Origin: a virus
Virus record (IMG/VR): IMGVR_UViG_3300032291_001456
Span: 1 to 20,043 of that record
Reading direction: 5' to 3' (one strand)
DNA: 20,043 nucleotides
Below the pieces are notes generated by a model. The model was given only the letters and a program-made list of their open reading frames with translations. It was not told the origin of the DNA and searched no databases. Both the position numbers and the translations under genes were made by a program. Within the stretch, counting starts at the first letter, position 1. Every line of letters starts with the position of its first letter. This document shows positions 514-6,511 of this stretch, piece after piece.

Positions 514-1347
514 TTAGTATGCGAACAAGTCGTAGTCTCTACGAGTTGTCCATTTAGCAGTGCTTGGAGTGTAGCACATACAGTTATGCACTACATCTGA
601 GCAGTCGAAGCATAGCGTACATGTTGGACAGTAGTATGGATTATCACTAAGGTCTACAATTTCTAAGCAATACGGACATAGTTCGTCAAGCTCTGAGTCA
701 TCTAAGACTTCAGTAACATCTCCCCACTTTGATACAGTATCGTATTCATTATAGGTAGTGAGTACTGCTGGCTTGGTGTAGGTAGTGCGCTTGTGACTCT
801 GATTAGACCACCAGATACCTTCGTTATCCCATGTACCTAAGTTCTCATTGACTAGGTACATAGGATACTTGGCGGTGGTACTGGTCGTGAGTATAGCAAT
901 CTTACTACCACTAGCCCACTTGGAAATCATGAGCCAAATAGTATCATCATCTAGTGCATTGACACCACCCAGTTTGGGTAGCGTGTCCTCTGCAAAGACT
1001 CGTGTGTCTGAACGGCGGTCGCCGTGTGGGATAGCAACATCTAACACACCATTGTGTGCTAGGTATGTGCCTTCATCATCACCGACTTGGAATGGGTGAC
1101 AATTCTGTTCGTTCTTTACACCATGTGTGGCGTATCGTGCATGCCACATGGCATAGCCGTTAGGATACTGCGCTCGCAGCTCCATGAAACGCTTGATAGA
1201 TTTCTTTGCAGACATACTGCGCTCTGAGATAATCTTATCACCAGCGTGTATTGCGAAGCCAAAGCCATGCGGATTAGCGCAAGCACCAGCGTGCAAGTCT
1301 GATTTACTTGGTGTGGAGTTTGGCTCACACACTACGAGTATGCACAT
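514..1347 (-). CDS. Class II (Ntn-type) glutamine amidotransferase with C-terminal Cys-rich zinc-binding tail
   Basis: Predicted to hydrolyse glutamine and pass ammonia to a partner ligase. The protein starts Met-Cys, so Cys2 is the expected N-terminal nucleophile after Met removal. Family motifs follow in order: NPHGFG (25-30), HARYATHG (69-76), NCHPF (82-86), AHNGV (97-101) and SDT (113-115), matching the glutaminase pocket of GATase-2 enzymes. Residues 1 to about 180 form this domain. The tail (about 224-258) holds eight Cys (CPYC, CPTC, CFDC, CMC) and probably binds zinc; such a tail is unusual for the family. The start has a strong AGAGAGGATACT leader. The amidoligase gene ends only 10 bp upstream, so the two are almost certainly co-transcribed and probably work together. 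The substrate cannot be read from sequence. A stand-alone Ntn amidohydrolase is the main alternative. Confidence 0.88.
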   Translation of the reverse strand: MCILVVCEPNSTPSKSDLHAGACANPHGFGFAIHAGDKIISERSMSAKKSIKRFMELRAQYPNGYAMWHARYATHGVKNEQNCHPFQVGDDEGTYLAHNGVLDVAIPHGDRRSDTRVFAEDTLPKLGGVNALDDDTIWLMISKWASGSKIAILTTSTTAKYPMYLVNENLGTWDNEGIWWSNQSHKRTTYTKPAVLTTYNEYDTVSKWGDVTEVLDDSELDELCPYCLEIVDLSDNPYYCPTCTLCFDCSDVVHNCMCYTPSTAKWTTRRDYDLFAY

Positions 1348-2868: not shown

Positions 2869-2983
2869 TCTTACCGATAATCTCTCGAATTGTGTGCGAG
2901 ATTTCCTCGTTAGCATGGCGGTCTGCCATAGCCTTACGAAATGCGTAAAGCATGGTTGGATTGAGATTGTTATCGTGCTTCAT
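2858..2983 (-). CDS. Micro-gene, 41 aa hypothetical protein
   Basis: ATG at 2983 and TAA at 2860-2858 define a 41-residue protein beginning MKHDNNLNPTMLYAFR and ending IREIIGKNVR. A GAAGG sequence lies just before the start. Both ends overlap neighbours in other frames: its first 14 bases overlap the end of the 46-codon gene, and its last 11 bases overlap the start of the 63-codon gene. This chained overlap on one strand is the main evidence that the frame is real. The composition is helical and basic at the C-terminus, with no membrane segment or Cys. No family recognised. Confidence 0.5.
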   Translation of the reverse strand: MKHDNNLNPTMLYAFRKAMADRHANEEISHTIREIIGKNVR

Positions 2984-3110
2984 AGTAGCCTTCGTATCTG
3001 CGCAGTCTGCGCTCTAATACATAGACTCTACGAAACGCAATTATCAGTATCGTGTTAAGCGAACCGATAGCAATTATGAGCGCGAATAAATCACTCGCGG
3101 ATAGTTGCAT
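2970..3110 (-). CDS. Small single-span membrane protein, 46 aa
   Basis: The frame runs from ATG 3110 to TAA 2972-2970, behind an excellent GAGAGGATACGCC leader. Residues 8-26 (LFALIIAIGSLNTILIIAF) form one clear membrane segment. The Arg-rich stretch after it (FRRVYVLERRLRRYEG) predicts the C-terminus in the cytoplasm. Size and topology would suit a small holin, antiholin, superinfection-exclusion or membrane-anchor protein, but the position in a non-lysis operon argues against a confident holin call. Its 3' end overlaps the 41-codon gene by 14 bases, so translation of the two is probably coupled. Confidence 0.6.
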   Translation of the reverse strand: MQLSASDLFALIIAIGSLNTILIIAFRRVYVLERRLRRYEGYYEAR

Positions 3111-3132
3111 GGCGTATCCTCTCTAGTCAATT

Positions 3133-3149
3133 TCATGCGGTTTGCATGA
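3133..3149. repeat. 6-bp hairpin next to the tRNA-like element
   Basis: TCATGC (3133-3138) and GCATGA (3144-3149) pair around a GGTTT loop. On the leftward transcript it lies between the tRNA-like element and the ribosome binding site of the membrane-protein gene. It may punctuate processing or influence initiation. Confidence 0.35.
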
Positions 3150-3151
3150 GT

Positions 3152-3194
3152 ACCCCGTAGAGGACTCGAACCTCTACCCTGCACCATGCGGGGT
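3152..3194 (-). other. tRNA-like T-arm plus acceptor-like stem (truncated tRNA or minihelix)
   Basis: On the minus strand a perfect T-arm is visible: AGAGG, the loop TTCGAGT, then CCTCT, giving the conserved GGTTCGAGTCC signature. It is flanked by ACCCCGC on the 5' side and ACGGGGT on the 3' side, which can form a 7-bp acceptor-like stem with one mismatch. Only 12 bases separate the 5' acceptor strand from the T-arm, so there is no room for D and anticodon arms, and no CCA follows. It is therefore not a functional tRNA gene. It may be a degraded tRNA, a tRNA-mimicking minihelix in the operon mRNA, or the 3' end of a host tRNA copied as an attachment-site core. No integrase is in view to support the last option. 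Confidence 0.5.
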
Positions 3195-3201
3195 CACTAA
3201 T

Positions 3202-3504
3202 CTAATTGTCGTCTAGGTGTATCGAACCCATTTCACGCATGAGTTTATCCATGCGTTCTTGCAGCTCGATAGCCTTGTGGTCTTGCGGGCGTACTGTGTG
3301 CGCTTGCTTGTGCTTGCGCTTACCTTGTGGCTTGTGTGGCTTACCCTTGCGAGCGCGTGGCTTGCGAGGTTTGGCGGGCGTGGCGGGAATAACTAAGGTT
3401 TCCCCGTTTGGTTTGGTTATGGTGATTTCACTAACACCATGCTTAGACTGTGCCCATGCGCGAGTAGCGCGGGGCTTGTGTGGCATGGTTACGAATGAAC
3501 CCAT
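3202..3504 (-). CDS. Lys/Arg/Pro-rich basic protein, 100 aa
   Basis: First gene of the leftward operon. The start at ATG 3504 follows GGAGATAAATC, which favours it over the in-frame ATG six codons downstream. Residues 1-40 are mixed, with a short beta-like segment (EITITKPNGETLVIPAT). Residues about 42-70 are extremely basic and proline-rich (KPRKPRARKGKPHKPQGKRK), and residues 75-95 are a charged helix (AIELQERMDKLMREMG). Such a disordered basic tract would bind nucleic acid non-specifically. No enzymatic motif, Cys or membrane segment is seen. As the promoter-proximal gene it is probably made in larger amounts than the distal genes. Function unknown. Confidence 0.6.
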   Translation of the reverse strand: MGSFVTMPHKPRATRAWAQSKHGVSEITITKPNGETLVIPATPAKPRKPRARKGKPHKPQGKRKHKQAHTVRPQDHKAIELQERMDKLMREMGSIHLDDN

Positions 3505-3536
3505 GATTTATCTCCATTTCTAGTCGGTTTGGTAAT

Positions 3537-3600
3537 GCGTGGATAGACGGGGGTTTCCCCCCGCCTACCCGCTAGATTATCCCCGCGCCTACAAGCGTGG
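3537..3600. repeat. Nested hairpins upstream of the leftward operon
   Basis: GCGTGGATA (3537-3545) pairs with TATCCCCGC (3578-3586) with one mismatch and encloses a GGGGG-TTT-CCCCC hairpin (3549-3561). Just to the right, CCGCGC (3583-3588) pairs with GCGTGG (3595-3600) around a 6-base loop if read as + strand RNA, where one pair is G-U. The two outer stems share 3583-3586, so they are alternatives. If leftward transcription starts further right, this lies in the mRNA leader of the 100-residue gene. No T-run follows. Confidence 0.45.
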
Positions 3601-3657
3601 TATTCGTCTAGGTTTATTTCAATTTATCGACTAGCGAAATTTATTACTCCCGTTCGC

Positions 3658-3800
3658 CATTCACCATGAAATCGGGTATCCTCATTCATGGAGAAATTGC
3701 AGACTAATTAGGTCTAAATTTCTAGGGTACGACTGCCTTTCACTACCGAGTGAAACAAGGTACTAATCGGATACCCGACTTTCCGCTTACTCGGTGAATG
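3658..3800. ncRNA. Candidate multi-stem structured RNA (or DNA) element
   Basis: Four perfectly complementary stems nest in order. Outer stem: CATTCACC (3658-3665) with GGTGAATG (3793-3800). Second stem, 10 bp: TCGGGTATCC (3672-3681) with GGATACCCGA (3769-3778). Inside it are two side-by-side hairpins: AGAAATT plus AGAC (3692-3704) with GTCT plus AATTTCT (3712-3723), and TTTCACT (3738-3744) with AGTGAAA (3749-3755) closed by the tetraloop ACCG. This gives a helix ending in a three-way junction, in a stretch without a gene. No G-U pair is needed, so the transcribed strand cannot be decided. It could be a phage noncoding RNA, a cis-acting leader of the leftward operon, or a cruciform-forming DNA site such as an origin. 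I match it to no known RNA family. Confidence 0.5.
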
Positions 3801-3886
3801 ACGCTTGCTCACCCTTACAAGACATAATTTAGGGCATGGGCCCGCGCATGTCAAACACCACTCACGCTCAACCCTAAAAATAGCTC

Positions 3887-3902
3887 TGTGATTTAGGTCA
3901 CA
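3887..3902. promoter_or_regulatory. CRP/GlxR-type operator, site 1
   Basis: TGTGA-TTTAGG-TCACA is a perfect match to the TGTGA-N6-TCACA consensus recognised by cAMP-receptor-family regulators, including actinobacterial GlxR/Crp. It lies 23 bp, centre to centre, from site 2, which has the same TTTAGG spacer. Confidence 0.65.
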
Positions 3903-3909
3903 CTTAGCT

Positions 3910-3925
3910 AGTGATTTAGGTCACA
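3910..3925. promoter_or_regulatory. CRP/GlxR-type operator, site 2
   Basis: AGTGA-TTTAGG-TCACA matches nine of the ten consensus positions of the CRP-family palindrome. It repeats the spacer of site 1 and lies just to its right. The pair could bind two dimers near the promoter region around 3980. Confidence 0.55.
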
Positions 3926-3968
3926 TTCTCATAATTCCCCGCGTGTCGGTTTGATTATCGCGGGCGGT

Positions 3969-4021
3969 TATGGTACGCGCCTATAATTCGGGCAATTCGG
4001 ACATTCCCTGTCCGTACCATA
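3969..4021. repeat. Long inverted repeat enclosing a TATAAT box and an inner hairpin
   Basis: TATGGTACG (3969-3977) is exactly complementary to CGTACCATA (4013-4021). Between them lie a perfect TATAAT (3982-3987), two direct copies of AATTCGG (3985-3991 and 3994-4000), and a smaller hairpin CGGAC (3998-4002) with GTCCG (4010-4014). No good -35 box is found 16-18 bp before the TATAAT, which would fit an activator-dependent promoter, but this is only suggestive. CRP-like sites 1-2 lie to the left and site 3 to the right. Confidence 0.45.
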
Positions 4022-4050
4022 GACGCGCCATAAGCGCAAGGGTTTAGCCA

Positions 4051-4066
4051 TGTGATTTAGCTCACA
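4051..4066. promoter_or_regulatory. CRP/GlxR-type operator, site 3
   Basis: TGTGA-TTTAGC-TCACA is a perfect consensus match with a slightly different spacer from sites 1-2. The AT-rich stretch just to its right contains CATAAT (4084-4089) and TATAAA (4098-4103), either of which could be a -10 element. Confidence 0.65.
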
Positions 4067-4117
4067 TAGTAGATTTCGTTTTGCATAATAGATAGGTATA
4101 AATAATCCCCGCTAATA

Positions 4118-4235
4118 CTGAGAGTTTGCTGAGAGATTACTGAGAGAGCCTAACCCTAGTGTGATGCAGGTCACACTTAGTAATGCTGAGAGTTTCCTGA
4201 GAAATTATTGTGTGCCCGCTGAGAAATTATTGTGT
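4118..4235 (+). repeat. Phased CTGAGAR direct repeats and a 17-bp tandem repeat
   Basis: CTGAGAG occurs at 4118, 4129, 4140 and 4186, and CTGAGAA at 4197 and 4219. Spacings are 11, 11, 46, 11 and 22 bp, so neighbouring copies lie on nearly the same face of the helix. The last two copies belong to an exact 17-bp repeat (4197-4213 and 4219-4235) with a 22-bp period. CRP-like site 4 lies in the 46-bp gap. Eleven-bp direct repeats are typical of OmpR/PhoB-family response-regulator sites; iterons for a replication initiator are the other main possibility. Confidence 0.6.
4160..4175. promoter_or_regulatory. CRP/GlxR-type operator, site 4
   Basis: TGTGA-TGCAGG-TCACA is a perfect consensus match embedded among the CTGAGAR repeats. 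Its spacer differs from the others, so the cluster is not simply a copied block. It shares the right flank CACTTAG with site 1. Confidence 0.65.
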
Positions 4236-4432
4236 CGGTGGATAGTCGGTAAATAGATAAATGAATAAAACACTTAACCGCTTTATAGATTTATCGACAA
4301 TTCATACCAACCCTAACCCTTTACCTTAGACTTAGACATTTTGACCCCAGATTGTTTAATACGAGTGGGGAGGTCGGATATAGTATCCCACAAAAAATTT
4401 CTGTTATATAATACTATAGCCCCCCTATATAT

Positions 4433-4451
4433 AGCCCTGACCAGGGCTTTT
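4433..4451 (+). terminator. Intrinsic terminator-like hairpin
   Basis: AGCCCT (4433-4438) and AGGGCT (4443-4448) form a 6-bp GC-rich stem with a GACC loop, followed by TTTT on the + strand. It lies about 190 bp before the terminase gene. It would therefore stop rightward transcripts that start in the operator region and insulate the structural operon. On the minus strand the run after the stem is AT-mixed, so rightward action is more likely. Confidence 0.5.
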
Positions 4452-4487
4452 AAAAATATATTGGTTTCAGTTGTTCGGTTTTACGAT

Positions 4488-4514
4488 TTGAACAGGTTAT
4501 CTTATATGTATAAT
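4488..4514 (+). promoter_or_regulatory. Candidate promoter of the terminase/structural operon
   Basis: TTGAAC (4488-4493) and a perfect TATAAT (4509-4514) are separated by 15 bp, shorter than the preferred 17. An alternative -10, TAATAA at 4511, gives 17 bp. This is the best sigma-70-like candidate between the terminator and the terminase start. The transcript would begin near 4521 and carry a structured leader of about 120 bases. Confidence 0.4.
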
Positions 4515-4524
4515 AATACATATA
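4503..4524. promoter_or_regulatory. Perfect 9-bp palindrome over the -10 box (operator candidate)
   Basis: TATATGTAT (4503-4511) and ATACATATA (4516-4524) are exact inverted copies around AATA. The palindrome covers the TATAAT of the candidate late promoter, where a bound dimer would block RNA polymerase. No phage repressor gene is in the window to pair it with. Confidence 0.45.
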
Positions 4525-4556
4525 CGGAGTCGCTCCGTTTAAGACTCCGCGACTCC
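4525..4556 (+). repeat. Mutually exclusive hairpins in the terminase leader
   Basis: Three stems compete for the same bases. CGGAG (4525-4529) pairs with CTCCG (4533-4537); CGGAGTC (4525-4531) pairs with GACTCCG (4543-4549); GGAGTCG (4526-4532) pairs with CGACTCC (4550-4556). They lie at the start of the probable terminase leader and are followed by a TATATATAAT-rich stretch. An attenuator, a weak terminator or a packaging-site structure would all fit. Confidence 0.45.
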
Positions 4557-4642
4557 TATATATAATATAATATATAATAATATGGGGAAGTTCTGCCGTT
4601 AATCGGCCAGCGTTAAATGACTGTAAATGATGGGGACAACTG

Positions 4643-6511
4643 ATGGGTAGAAAACCTGGGATTCAGAATATCCCTAAGCGCGAGGCGCAAGAGAAGGCCT
4701 TACAGCAACTGAGTCAGGGTAGCACAATTACCCAGGCTATGGCCTCCGTGGGCCGCTCAGACGTGGCATTCCGCCAATGGTCAGCAACTGACCCTGAGTT
4801 CAAAGCACGTGCCGAGGCTGCTCGCCTCGAGGGTAAGGGCATCAAGACTGACCTAAAGGAGTTGGGAGATATTTCCTTCCCCGACTTCTCTGAGCAGTTC
4901 CTAGACACTAAGCTCTTTGACCATCACCTTGACTGGGTAGACCTGATTGAGGGCCGTGAGCCCCGCTGGCTAGACCCAGCCATGACCTACGAGCCAGGTG
5001 CTGCCAACCGTGTACTAATTAACGTACCTCCTGAGCACGCCAAGTCCACAGTCATTACGACTAACTATGTCGTCTACAAGATTGTGACTAACCCCAACGC
5101 CCGCGTCATTATTGTATCCAAGACGCAGGGTATGGCCCGCAAGTTTCTTGGGGCAATCAAAACAAGACTTTCCCACCCAGCCTTCACCAAACTCCAAGTA
5201 GCCTTCGGGCCTAACGGGGGATATAAGGCGGACTCAACACAATGGTCTGCCGATATGATTTACCTGGGTACAGGACGCGACTCTGGCGAAAAAGACCCAA
5301 CGGTCCAAGCCCTAGGTATGGGCTCACAGATTTACGGTGCTCGCGCTGACCTGATTATAATCGACGATGCTGTCATGGGCTCAAACGCCCACGAGTGGGA
5401 AAAGCAGCTCGAGTGGATTCAAAAGGAAGTTATTACACGTCTTGGTAGACATGGTAAATTAATTATCGTTGGCACTCGAGTTGCACCAATTGACCTGTAT
5501 AAGATGCTACGTGACCCTCAACAGTGGTCTGGTGGCAAATCACCCTTTACTTACTTTGCAATGCCTGCCGTACTCCAGTTTGACGAGAAGCCTGATAACT
5601 GGAAGACGCTGTGGCCTAAGACCACAATGCAGGAAAACGAGATTGATGAGCCTGACGAAAATGGACTTTATCCGAAATGGGATGGACCCTCGCTCTTTAC
5701 GCGCCGCTCTGAAGTTGCGGCATCTGTCTGGGCTATGGTCTACCAACAAGAAGACGTCCAGTCCGATTCTATATTCTCGCCAACAGCAGTTGCAGGATGT
5801 GTTAACGGTATGCGAAAGCGTGGACCGCTTAAACCAGGTACTCCAGGCCACCCCTCCAGAGCAGGCTCGACCTACACAGTAATTGGTTTTGACCCTGCAG
5901 TATCTGGTCGTTCAGCATTTGTAGCTGTAACTCTTAACCGAGATGACAGCACAATCTATGTACTTGACTGCGTAAATATGTCAGACCCTACTCCTCAAAA
6001 GGAGAATGCTCTAATTCGTGAGTGGGTCGAGAAGTACCACCCTCAAGAGTTCCGCGTAGAAATTAACGCACACCAGAAGTACTACGCTATGGATACTGAC
6101 CTGCGTAACTATCTGGCTACCTATGGCTGCCAGTTAAATTCACATTTTACTGGTAAGAACAAGTGGGACACATCTTTTGGTGTAGCATCTATGTCTAGCC
6201 TTTTTGGTACTATACATGATGGTCGCTACCAAGACAACGGTCTAATCGAACTACCAAGTAACGAAGGCTCAGAGGGACTCAAGTCTCTTGTGCAGCAACT
6301 CATTACTTGGAAGCCAGATACTAAGAACCCTACTGACTGCGTGATGGCTTTATGGTTTGCTATCATTCGTATACGCGAATTAATGCAACAAGGCAGCAAG
6401 GTTGGTCAGTTCCAAAATAATCGCTGGGCAACCAGATACCAAAAGCAAAGCAGAATGTCATTGAACCTAGATGAAGCATTTGCTGAGCAATGGCAAGAAA
6501 CTTACAGTTAG
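4643..6511 (+). CDS. terL: Terminase large subunit (packaging ATPase and nuclease) with N-terminal HTH-like segment
   Basis: Motor and nuclease that packages DNA through the portal. Residues about 15-62 resemble the HTH region of small terminases and phage DNA-binding proteins (QGSTITQAMASVGRSDVAF, then TDPEFKARAEAAR). The ATPase domain follows, with a variant Walker A, PPEHAKST (129-136), Walker B LIIIDD (237-242) and the coupling motif VGTR (276-279). The RNase-H-like nuclease begins near 410 with GFDPAVSG (Asp417) and has a second acidic motif, VEIN (Glu473). At 622 residues it is longer than many TerL proteins because of the N-terminal part. The ATG follows GGGGAC. No separate small terminase precedes it, so the N-terminal segment may do that job. 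It is the first gene of the rightward operon. TerL is certain from motifs; the N-terminal role is inference. Confidence 0.93.
   Translation: MGRKPGIQNIPKREAQEKALQQLSQGSTITQAMASVGRSDVAFRQWSATDPEFKARAEAARLEGKGIKTDLKELGDISFPDFSEQFLDTKLFDHHLDWVDLIEGREPRWLDPAMTYEPGAANRVLINVPPEHAKSTVITTNYVVYKIVTNPNARVIIVSKTQGMARKFLGAIKTRLSHPAFTKLQVAFGPNGGYKADSTQWSADMIYLGTGRDSGEKDPTVQALGMGSQIYGARADLIIIDDAVMGSNAHEWEKQLEWIQKEVITRLGRHGKLIIVGTRVAPIDLYKMLRDPQQWSGGKSPFTYFAMPAVLQFDEKPDNWKTLWPKTTMQENEIDEPDENGLYPKWDGPSLFTRRSEVAASVWAMVYQQEDVQSDSIFSPTAVAGCVNGMRKRGPLKPGTPGHPSRAGSTYTVIGFDPAVSGRSAFVAVTLNRDDSTIYVLDCVNMSDPTPQKENALIREWVEKYHPQEFRVEINAHQKYYAMDTDLRNYLATYGCQLNSHFTGKNKWDTSFGVASMSSLFGTIHDGRYQDNGLIELPSNEGSEGLKSLVQQLITWKPDTKNPTDCVMALWFAIIRIRELMQQGSKVGQFQNNRWATRYQKQSRMSLNLDEAFAEQWQETYS

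Follow-up and report, generated by a model that had tools for sequence, protein, structure and literature searches.

Which regulator reads a tight group of CRP-type palindromes in the control region of a phage, and on which transcript does it act? The question is raised by the window, i.e., the whole stretch of 20,043 bases that was analyzed, which corresponds to IMG/VR virus record IMGVR_UViG_3300032291_001456. Three perfect TGTGA-N6-TCACA palindromes are encountered here, at 3887..3902 (TGTGATTTAGGTCACA), 4051..4066 (TGTGATTTAGCTCACA), and 4160..4175 (TGTGATGCAGGTCACA), together with a one-mismatch copy at 3910..3925 (AGTGATTTAGGTCACA). A sequence search confirmed this set of sites and its non-coding location as described in the first-pass annotation, and in the whole record no perfect copy was found outside these three positions. 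All four palindromes lie within a 1.1-kb divergent intergenic region (3505-4642), left of the terminase gene, which is bounded by the start of a minus-strand ORF of 100 amino acids at 3504 and the start of terminase at 4643. Among the ORFs of at least 60 amino acids, a single one lies wholly within this region (74 amino acids, TTG start, 4341-4565) and one plus-strand ORF (3206-3523) intrudes 19 bases into it, and neither of these covers a palindrome. The chance level was 0.0007 perfect sites per shuffle, as determined from 3000 dinucleotide-preserving shuffles of 3505-4642. When up to two mismatches were allowed, no excess was detected across the window (12 sites observed versus 13.3 expected), indicating that the signal resides in the perfect and near-perfect sites.

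On the minus strand, sequence matching revealed a leftward promoter that consists of a -35 element TTGACA (3849..3854) and a -10 element TAAATT (3826..3831), separated by a 17-bp spacer and with a predicted start near 3819. The perfect palindrome at 3887 is positioned 32 bp upstream of this -35 element, which would place its center at approximately -75.5 relative to the predicted start, and the 3910 palindrome has a gap of 55 to the same TTGACA. Directly after the predicted start, a leader RNA of approximately 150 nucleotides is predicted to be structured (3655..3803, minus strand) on basis of the inverted repeats I1 and I4 and of folding, and this leader is largely alignable in L019, the one related locus that aligns across the whole region. 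For the minus strand of 3640-3819, a folding energy of -54.5 kcal/mol was obtained (z-score of -2.93), which was matched by 2 of 200 shuffles. The leftward gene set comprises the 100-amino-acid ORF (3202..3504, minus strand), which is the most promoter-proximal of the leftward ORFs that reach 60 amino acids and had no match in the family search, genes encoding an amidoligase-like protein (PF12224; 1358..2662, minus strand) and a class II glutamine amidotransferase-like protein (514..1347, minus strand), as well as small ORFs. By eye, a tRNA-like remnant is visible on the minus strand of 3130-3200, with acceptor-like and T-arm-like segments and the rest missing; ARAGORN called no tRNA in the window, and Rfam matches within 2900-4700 were found below gathering scores only.

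In the other direction, the gene for the terminase large subunit (4643..6511, plus strand), assigned by homology, is the first of a rightward structural operon that continues with genes for portal, an HslV-type peptidase, a scaffold-like protein, and the major head protein. Thirty bp downstream of the 4051 palindrome, a tentative candidate for a rightward -10 element, TATAAA (4097..4102, plus strand), is part of a GGTATAA element that is present in several relatives and may represent the rightward -10, and no accompanying -35 element was recognized. The 4160 palindrome is flanked by two arrays of CTGAGA direct repeats, the first with an 11-bp period (4118..4145, plus strand; repeats at 4118, 4129, and 4140) and the second at 4186..4224 (plus strand; repeats at 4186, 4197, and 4219). 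In the 1.9 kb upstream of terminase, CTGAGA-N5-CTGAGA was counted 53 times, in 20 of 80 sequences, and not once in 669 kb elsewhere. The repeats resemble what we take to be the box of an OmpR/PhoB-family response regulator, and no regulator for them was found in the open-access literature. Alignment moreover delineated a non-coding block (4471..4582) that is conserved among many relatives, including many that otherwise match little of the control region.

The distribution of the palindrome was determined in the best 80 of 595 IMG/VR terminase relatives (79-99% identity); the nearest named terminase records are OX376640/41 (78%), followed by Streptomyces phages (45%). Two of the 80 loci (L023 and L040), in which the start of terminase is missing, were left out of the counts. 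In the remaining 78 loci, the interval from -850 to -400 relative to terminase, 26.6 kb in all, contained 37 perfect sites, versus 3 in the other 697 kb (at -1401, -1475, and -1593), corresponding to densities of 1.39 and 0.004 per kb. With the window and phage E7 (OX376640) added, 45 perfect sites were located within 1.9 kb upstream of terminase and none in 669 kb elsewhere. The relatives thus concentrate the motif upstream of terminase and do not scatter it, in agreement with the assignment to a phage control region made in the first-pass annotation.

Upstream sequence of 900 bp or more was available for 59 loci; of these, 32 contain a perfect site and 38 a site with at most one mismatch, leaving 27 without a perfect site and 21 without any site at this stringency; the palindromes are common, though not universal, in terminase-related phages. 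Conservation of position, the lack of which the first-pass annotation had named among its refuting outcomes, is evident in L019, where perfect sites at -759, -595, and -485 correspond to those at -756, -592, and -483 in the window, and is incomplete across the relatives, of which the above 32 of 59 have a perfect site. In L019 the half-sites of all three palindromes are intact and their spacers have diverged, i.e., the half-sites are constrained and the spacer is free, as expected of an actinobacterial CRP/GlxR operator. The counterpart of the 3910 palindrome is lost in L019, and a TTGAGT is found at the position that matches the leftward -35 element of the window. Phage E7 contains exactly two perfect sites, both left of terminase. 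In E7 (L084; position 1435), L061, L043, and L067, the leftward genes harbor a second perfect site, which is followed 10 or 11 bp downstream by a TTGAC- or TTTACA-like -35 element.

Other motifs were noticed in the same regions. Among the 27 relatives that lack a perfect CRP site, 11 (L034, L045, L049, L051, L053, L059, L062, L065, L071, L073, and L079) show by eye different palindromes (such as CGTATAATACG or TGTATTAAATTAATACA), which precede a TTGAC promoter at -1.54 to -1.71 kb and look as if the regulator had been swapped. CGAAC-N4-GTTCG boxes were encountered 18 times upstream and not elsewhere (upstream regions of 18 of 80 sequences, e.g., L060, L067, and L074); they resemble actinobacterial LexA sites. 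Possibly, several host regulators dock in the control region. A search of 84,980 bacterial and archaeal genomes with six exact 8-residue patterns, by which divergent copies are missed, confirmed no terminase relative as a prophage.

The position of the palindromes relative to promoters was analyzed for 56 distinct sites (42 perfect and 14 with one mismatch, after removal of 5 duplicate rows from 61) in related and therewith non-independent loci. A strict promoter was defined as TTGACN/TTTACA-N16..19-TANNNT on the minus strand, at most 70 bp downstream of the palindrome. Such a promoter was found for 31 of the 56 sites, and these promoter-linked sites are invariably located upstream of the -35 element and never overlap it. 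The gaps amounted to 10 bp (12 sites), 21-22 bp (8 sites), or 31-32 bp (5 sites, with the window 3887 site at gap 32) in 25 of these 31 cases, a preference that is consistent with binding on one face of the helix. The six off-pattern gaps were 12, 16, 16, 16, 26, and 55 bp, and the three sites at gap 16 are the near members of tandem pairs of which the far member is at 32. No strict promoter was detected for the other 25 sites, which include the 4051 and 4160 palindromes of the window, the three sites of L019, and the two of E7. Downstream of the promoter, several relatives have a GGAG-like sequence and then an ATG.

A wider scan of IMG/VR for the CRP palindrome followed by a promoter at gaps of 4 to 34 bp yielded at least 120 stretches, with 80 loci and 93 matches among those listed; 2 of these 93 matches were too near an end, and removal of near-duplicates reduced the other 91 to 64. 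Among these 64 listed matches, gap 10 occurred in 21 (P = 5e-16 under a uniform null) and gaps 9-11 in 25, and phasing beyond gap 10 was weak (p = 0.054 without gaps 9-11; also p = 0.017). Of the 26 gap-10 loci listed, 3 share proteins of the clade at 60% identity or more and another 8 at no more than 24-32%. For the remaining 15, none of the 20 proteins tried gave a match, although some of these loci are short and might nevertheless be related. In locus L308 the promoter again precedes small ORFs, which it would transcribe in the direction leading away from a distant terminase; further on in this locus, a WhiB-like ORF was noted by eye on the opposite strand.

Three permuted palindromes, i.e., GATGT, TGGAT, and the reversed motif ACACT, served as controls. 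Their raw totals (67, 42, and 82 stretches) were not far below the total of at least 120 for the CRP scan. After removal of near-duplicates, gaps 9-11 were found in 1 of 26 matches for GATGT and 4 of 41 for TGGAT, without a peak at gap 10. For the reversed motif these gaps accounted for 14 of 40 matches, 13 of them at gaps 10-11, with outward extension of the stem in 12 of the 14; this motif looks like another real operator rather than a neutral control, and its peak at gaps 10-11 implies that position alone is not diagnostic of CRP. An intrinsic terminator hairpin was rejected as the nature of the gap 9-11 CRP matches, since 22 of the 25 had zero outward stem extension and none had a T-run. 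The pattern of CRP palindrome, gap of 4-34, and promoter was found in 1 of 394 Actinomycetes genomes, at gap 9, most of these genomes being from larger Actinomycetes in which the presumed GC-richness would also depress the chance occurrence of TTGACA-N17-TANNNT. By eye, this sole occurrence sits between a regulator-like ORF and a DnaK-like ORF.

The candidate regulator is to be sought in the host of this freshwater phage, which is probably a member of the acI actinobacteria, as judged from isolated phage relatives. OX376640 is Planktophila phage E7, which was isolated on 'Ca. Planktophila' LanE-43, a member of the Nanopelagicales (accessible text of PMC10202952). The probable actinobacterial host of the first-pass annotation is thereby supported. 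As host-like genomes, 42 small Actinomycetes genomes (1.0-1.6 Mb) were used, 4 of which were matched to the acI isolates IMCC25003, 26103, 19121, and 26077 (accessible text of PMC5301498). A GlxR homologue is encoded in 373 of the 394 Actinomycetes genomes and in all 28 of the small genomes tested, in the latter with 51-56% identity, an identical recognition helix (GASRETVNKALA), and a largely retained nucleotide pocket motif, GELSLFD.GPR. A CRP-family protein is thus present on the host side, and the designation of the palindromes as CRP/GlxR-type operators agrees with its recognition helix.

Elsewhere, ctaE-qcrCAB is a target of GlxR/Crp. Upstream of ctaE, 10 of 11 host-like genomes carry the core motif GTGA-N6-TCAC; these comprise all 7 genomes of a first set and 3 of the 4 acI-matched genomes, with the acI-matched genome G195 as the exception. 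The core motif was also observed at other places in host-like genomes, both inside and between genes. Only 7 of the 42 small genomes contain the perfect motif, whereas the reversed control has more (13 sites, spread over 10 genomes), and the core is likewise rare, with 336 occurrences versus 963 for the reversed control and a lower count in each of the 42 genomes. The opposite core bias was seen in a Speluncibacter genome (82:31) and in a Corynebacterium-like genome (29:15).

The first-pass annotation had suggested that the phage ties its transcription to the cAMP level or nutritional state of the host, and this link was weakened by the search for cyclases. Neither the class III cyclase family (PF00211) nor the CYTH family (PF01928) was detected in any of 17 host-like genomes, and both searches were positive in C. 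glutamicum; as judged from these two families, a capacity of the host to make cAMP was not found. A GlxR-type CRP is retained in the same 17 genomes despite the lack of a match to either family. That neither family was found speaks against a nutritional sensor, and for this reason CRP probably serves as a constantly available host factor and not as a sensor that depends on cAMP.

Taken together, the palindromes appear to be operators for the GlxR-type CRP of the host and not for a phage protein, with CRP bound at 3887 most likely activating the leftward promoter, a reading to which we assign a probability of roughly 0.62. It is very likely that host CRP binds the predicted operators. The arrangement of the sites is best read as activation of the leftward operon, because promoter-linked sites avoid overlap with the promoter and prefer certain distances. 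Host CRP would bind at 3887, aided by the 3910 site, 32 bp upstream of the minus-strand TTGACA, and would activate transcription of the gene set that runs away from terminase. This leftward operon would probably be early. Regarding the earlier proposal of control over early or late transcription, the 3887/3910 pair most likely acts on the leftward operon rather than on the late operon. The 4051 and 4160 sites, both of which adjoin CTGAGA repeats, may act on the opposite transcript.

The same sites could serve repression, with CRP silencing the leftward or rightward promoter until it is titrated by replicating phage DNA, which would create a switch coupled to copy number. The window has several sites, two of which (4051 and 4160) are not followed by a strict promoter, and the pir, dam, and recE promoters of phage T1 are repressed by host cAMP-CRP (accessible text of PMC6737242), which would fit such a switch. 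We nevertheless consider it unlikely, as the 31 promoter-linked sites stay clear of the -35 and -10 elements at 10 bp or more upstream, mostly at the three preferred distances, an arrangement that fits contact with RNA polymerase better. Titration by the phage, in which the sites are decoys that sequester host CRP and thereby alter expression of the respiratory ctaE-qcrCAB genes, would profit from the small number of perfect sites in host-like genomes and from the core motif before ctaE, since phage copies could outnumber these sites. Decoys neither need nor predict a preferred spacing to TTGACA, and many relatives have a single site or, in 27 of 59 loci, no perfect site at all, which makes this explanation highly improbable.

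Less probable again is a dimeric regulator encoded by the phage, unrelated to CRP, that reads the same palindrome. The substitute palindromes in 11 of 27 relatives are reminiscent of variable operators, and many window proteins match only families of unknown function; however, no PHROGs family with a regulator name was matched by any of the 18 window proteins scanned, the palindrome is identical to the Crp consensus of mycobacteria, a host-side regulator is present, and the transcription regulators named for E7 are WhiB and a sigma factor (accessible text of PMC10202952). Least probable is an architectural role, in which bending by CRP aids the structure of a replication origin or packaging site near terminase. 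The repeat-rich non-coding region, with its 11-bp CTGAGA repeats and conserved block, would suit such a role, whereas the preferred spacing to promoter elements does not, and neither does the second perfect site that E7 and three relatives have among the leftward genes, before another gene.

Beyond host CRP as activator of this leftward promoter, it is conceivable, as a tentative extension that we regard as rather doubtful, that phage groups with distant or no detectable kinship share a promoter type in which a consensus CRP site lies 10, 21, or 32 bp upstream of a consensus TTGACA-N17-TANNNT promoter for genes opposite terminase, and that cAMP-free CRP acts as a constant, high-affinity co-activator in acI hosts, which appear to lack the customary cyclases. 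If this were true, a regulator of host respiration would become an early-infection switch in very common freshwater bacteria, by means of a pattern that is almost absent from Actinomycetes chromosomes. The acI Nanopelagicales abound in freshwater all over the world, and a conserved promoter read by the host provides a testable handle on the start of infection by their phages. The gap rule, if confirmed, could locate leftward, probably early, operons in uncultured actinophages. Moreover, these findings bear on the geometry of CRP action in actinobacteria and on the role of CRP in those streamlined members in which neither of the two cyclase families was detected.

Compared with known systems, the sites resemble Actinomycetes GlxR/Crp operators in their 16-bp palindrome and in the recognition helix shared by host-like genomes, and differ from these in that they reside in phage DNA and prefer gaps of 10, 21, or 32 bp to TTGACA; a further difference is that the two cyclase families were not detected in the host-like genomes. 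For class I CRP promoters of E. coli, lac among them, the gaps are 17, 28, or 38 bp (17 in lac), with centers at -61.5, -72.5, and -82.5. The location at preferred distances upstream of the -35 element is common to both, but the register is not, as the gaps of 10, 21, and 32 bp would place the centers near -53.5, -64.5, and -75.5 from predicted starts, and for this reason the leftward promoter was not classified as a classical class I promoter. Promoters of lytic cyanophages carry sites for host NtcA, a CRP-family regulator, and PhoB, with a different motif, different hosts, and a nitrogen or phosphate signal. In M. smegmatis, the consensus of Crp1/Crp2 is TGTGA-N6-TCACA (accessible text of PMC12713383). 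No report of CRP sites in actinophage promoters was found in the open-access literature, including the accessible text of PMC8612146 and PMC6802176, in which CRP is not mentioned. The closest phages are the Planktophila phages LanE43AprE7, F5, and G2, actinophages of the same group with a terminase that is 78% identical, of which E7 has its two perfect sites in the same region; the first isolation of acI Nanopelagicales phages was reported only in 2023, and CRP sites are not mentioned in the accessible text of that report (PMC10202952). A functional parallel is the pir promoter of phage T1, which is likewise a regulatory phage promoter read by host CRP; in the T1 case, CRP-cAMP exerts repression on a lysis switch, with E. 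coli as the host, whereas the geometry determined here suggests activation of a leftward operon in actinophages (accessible text of PMC6737242 for T1).
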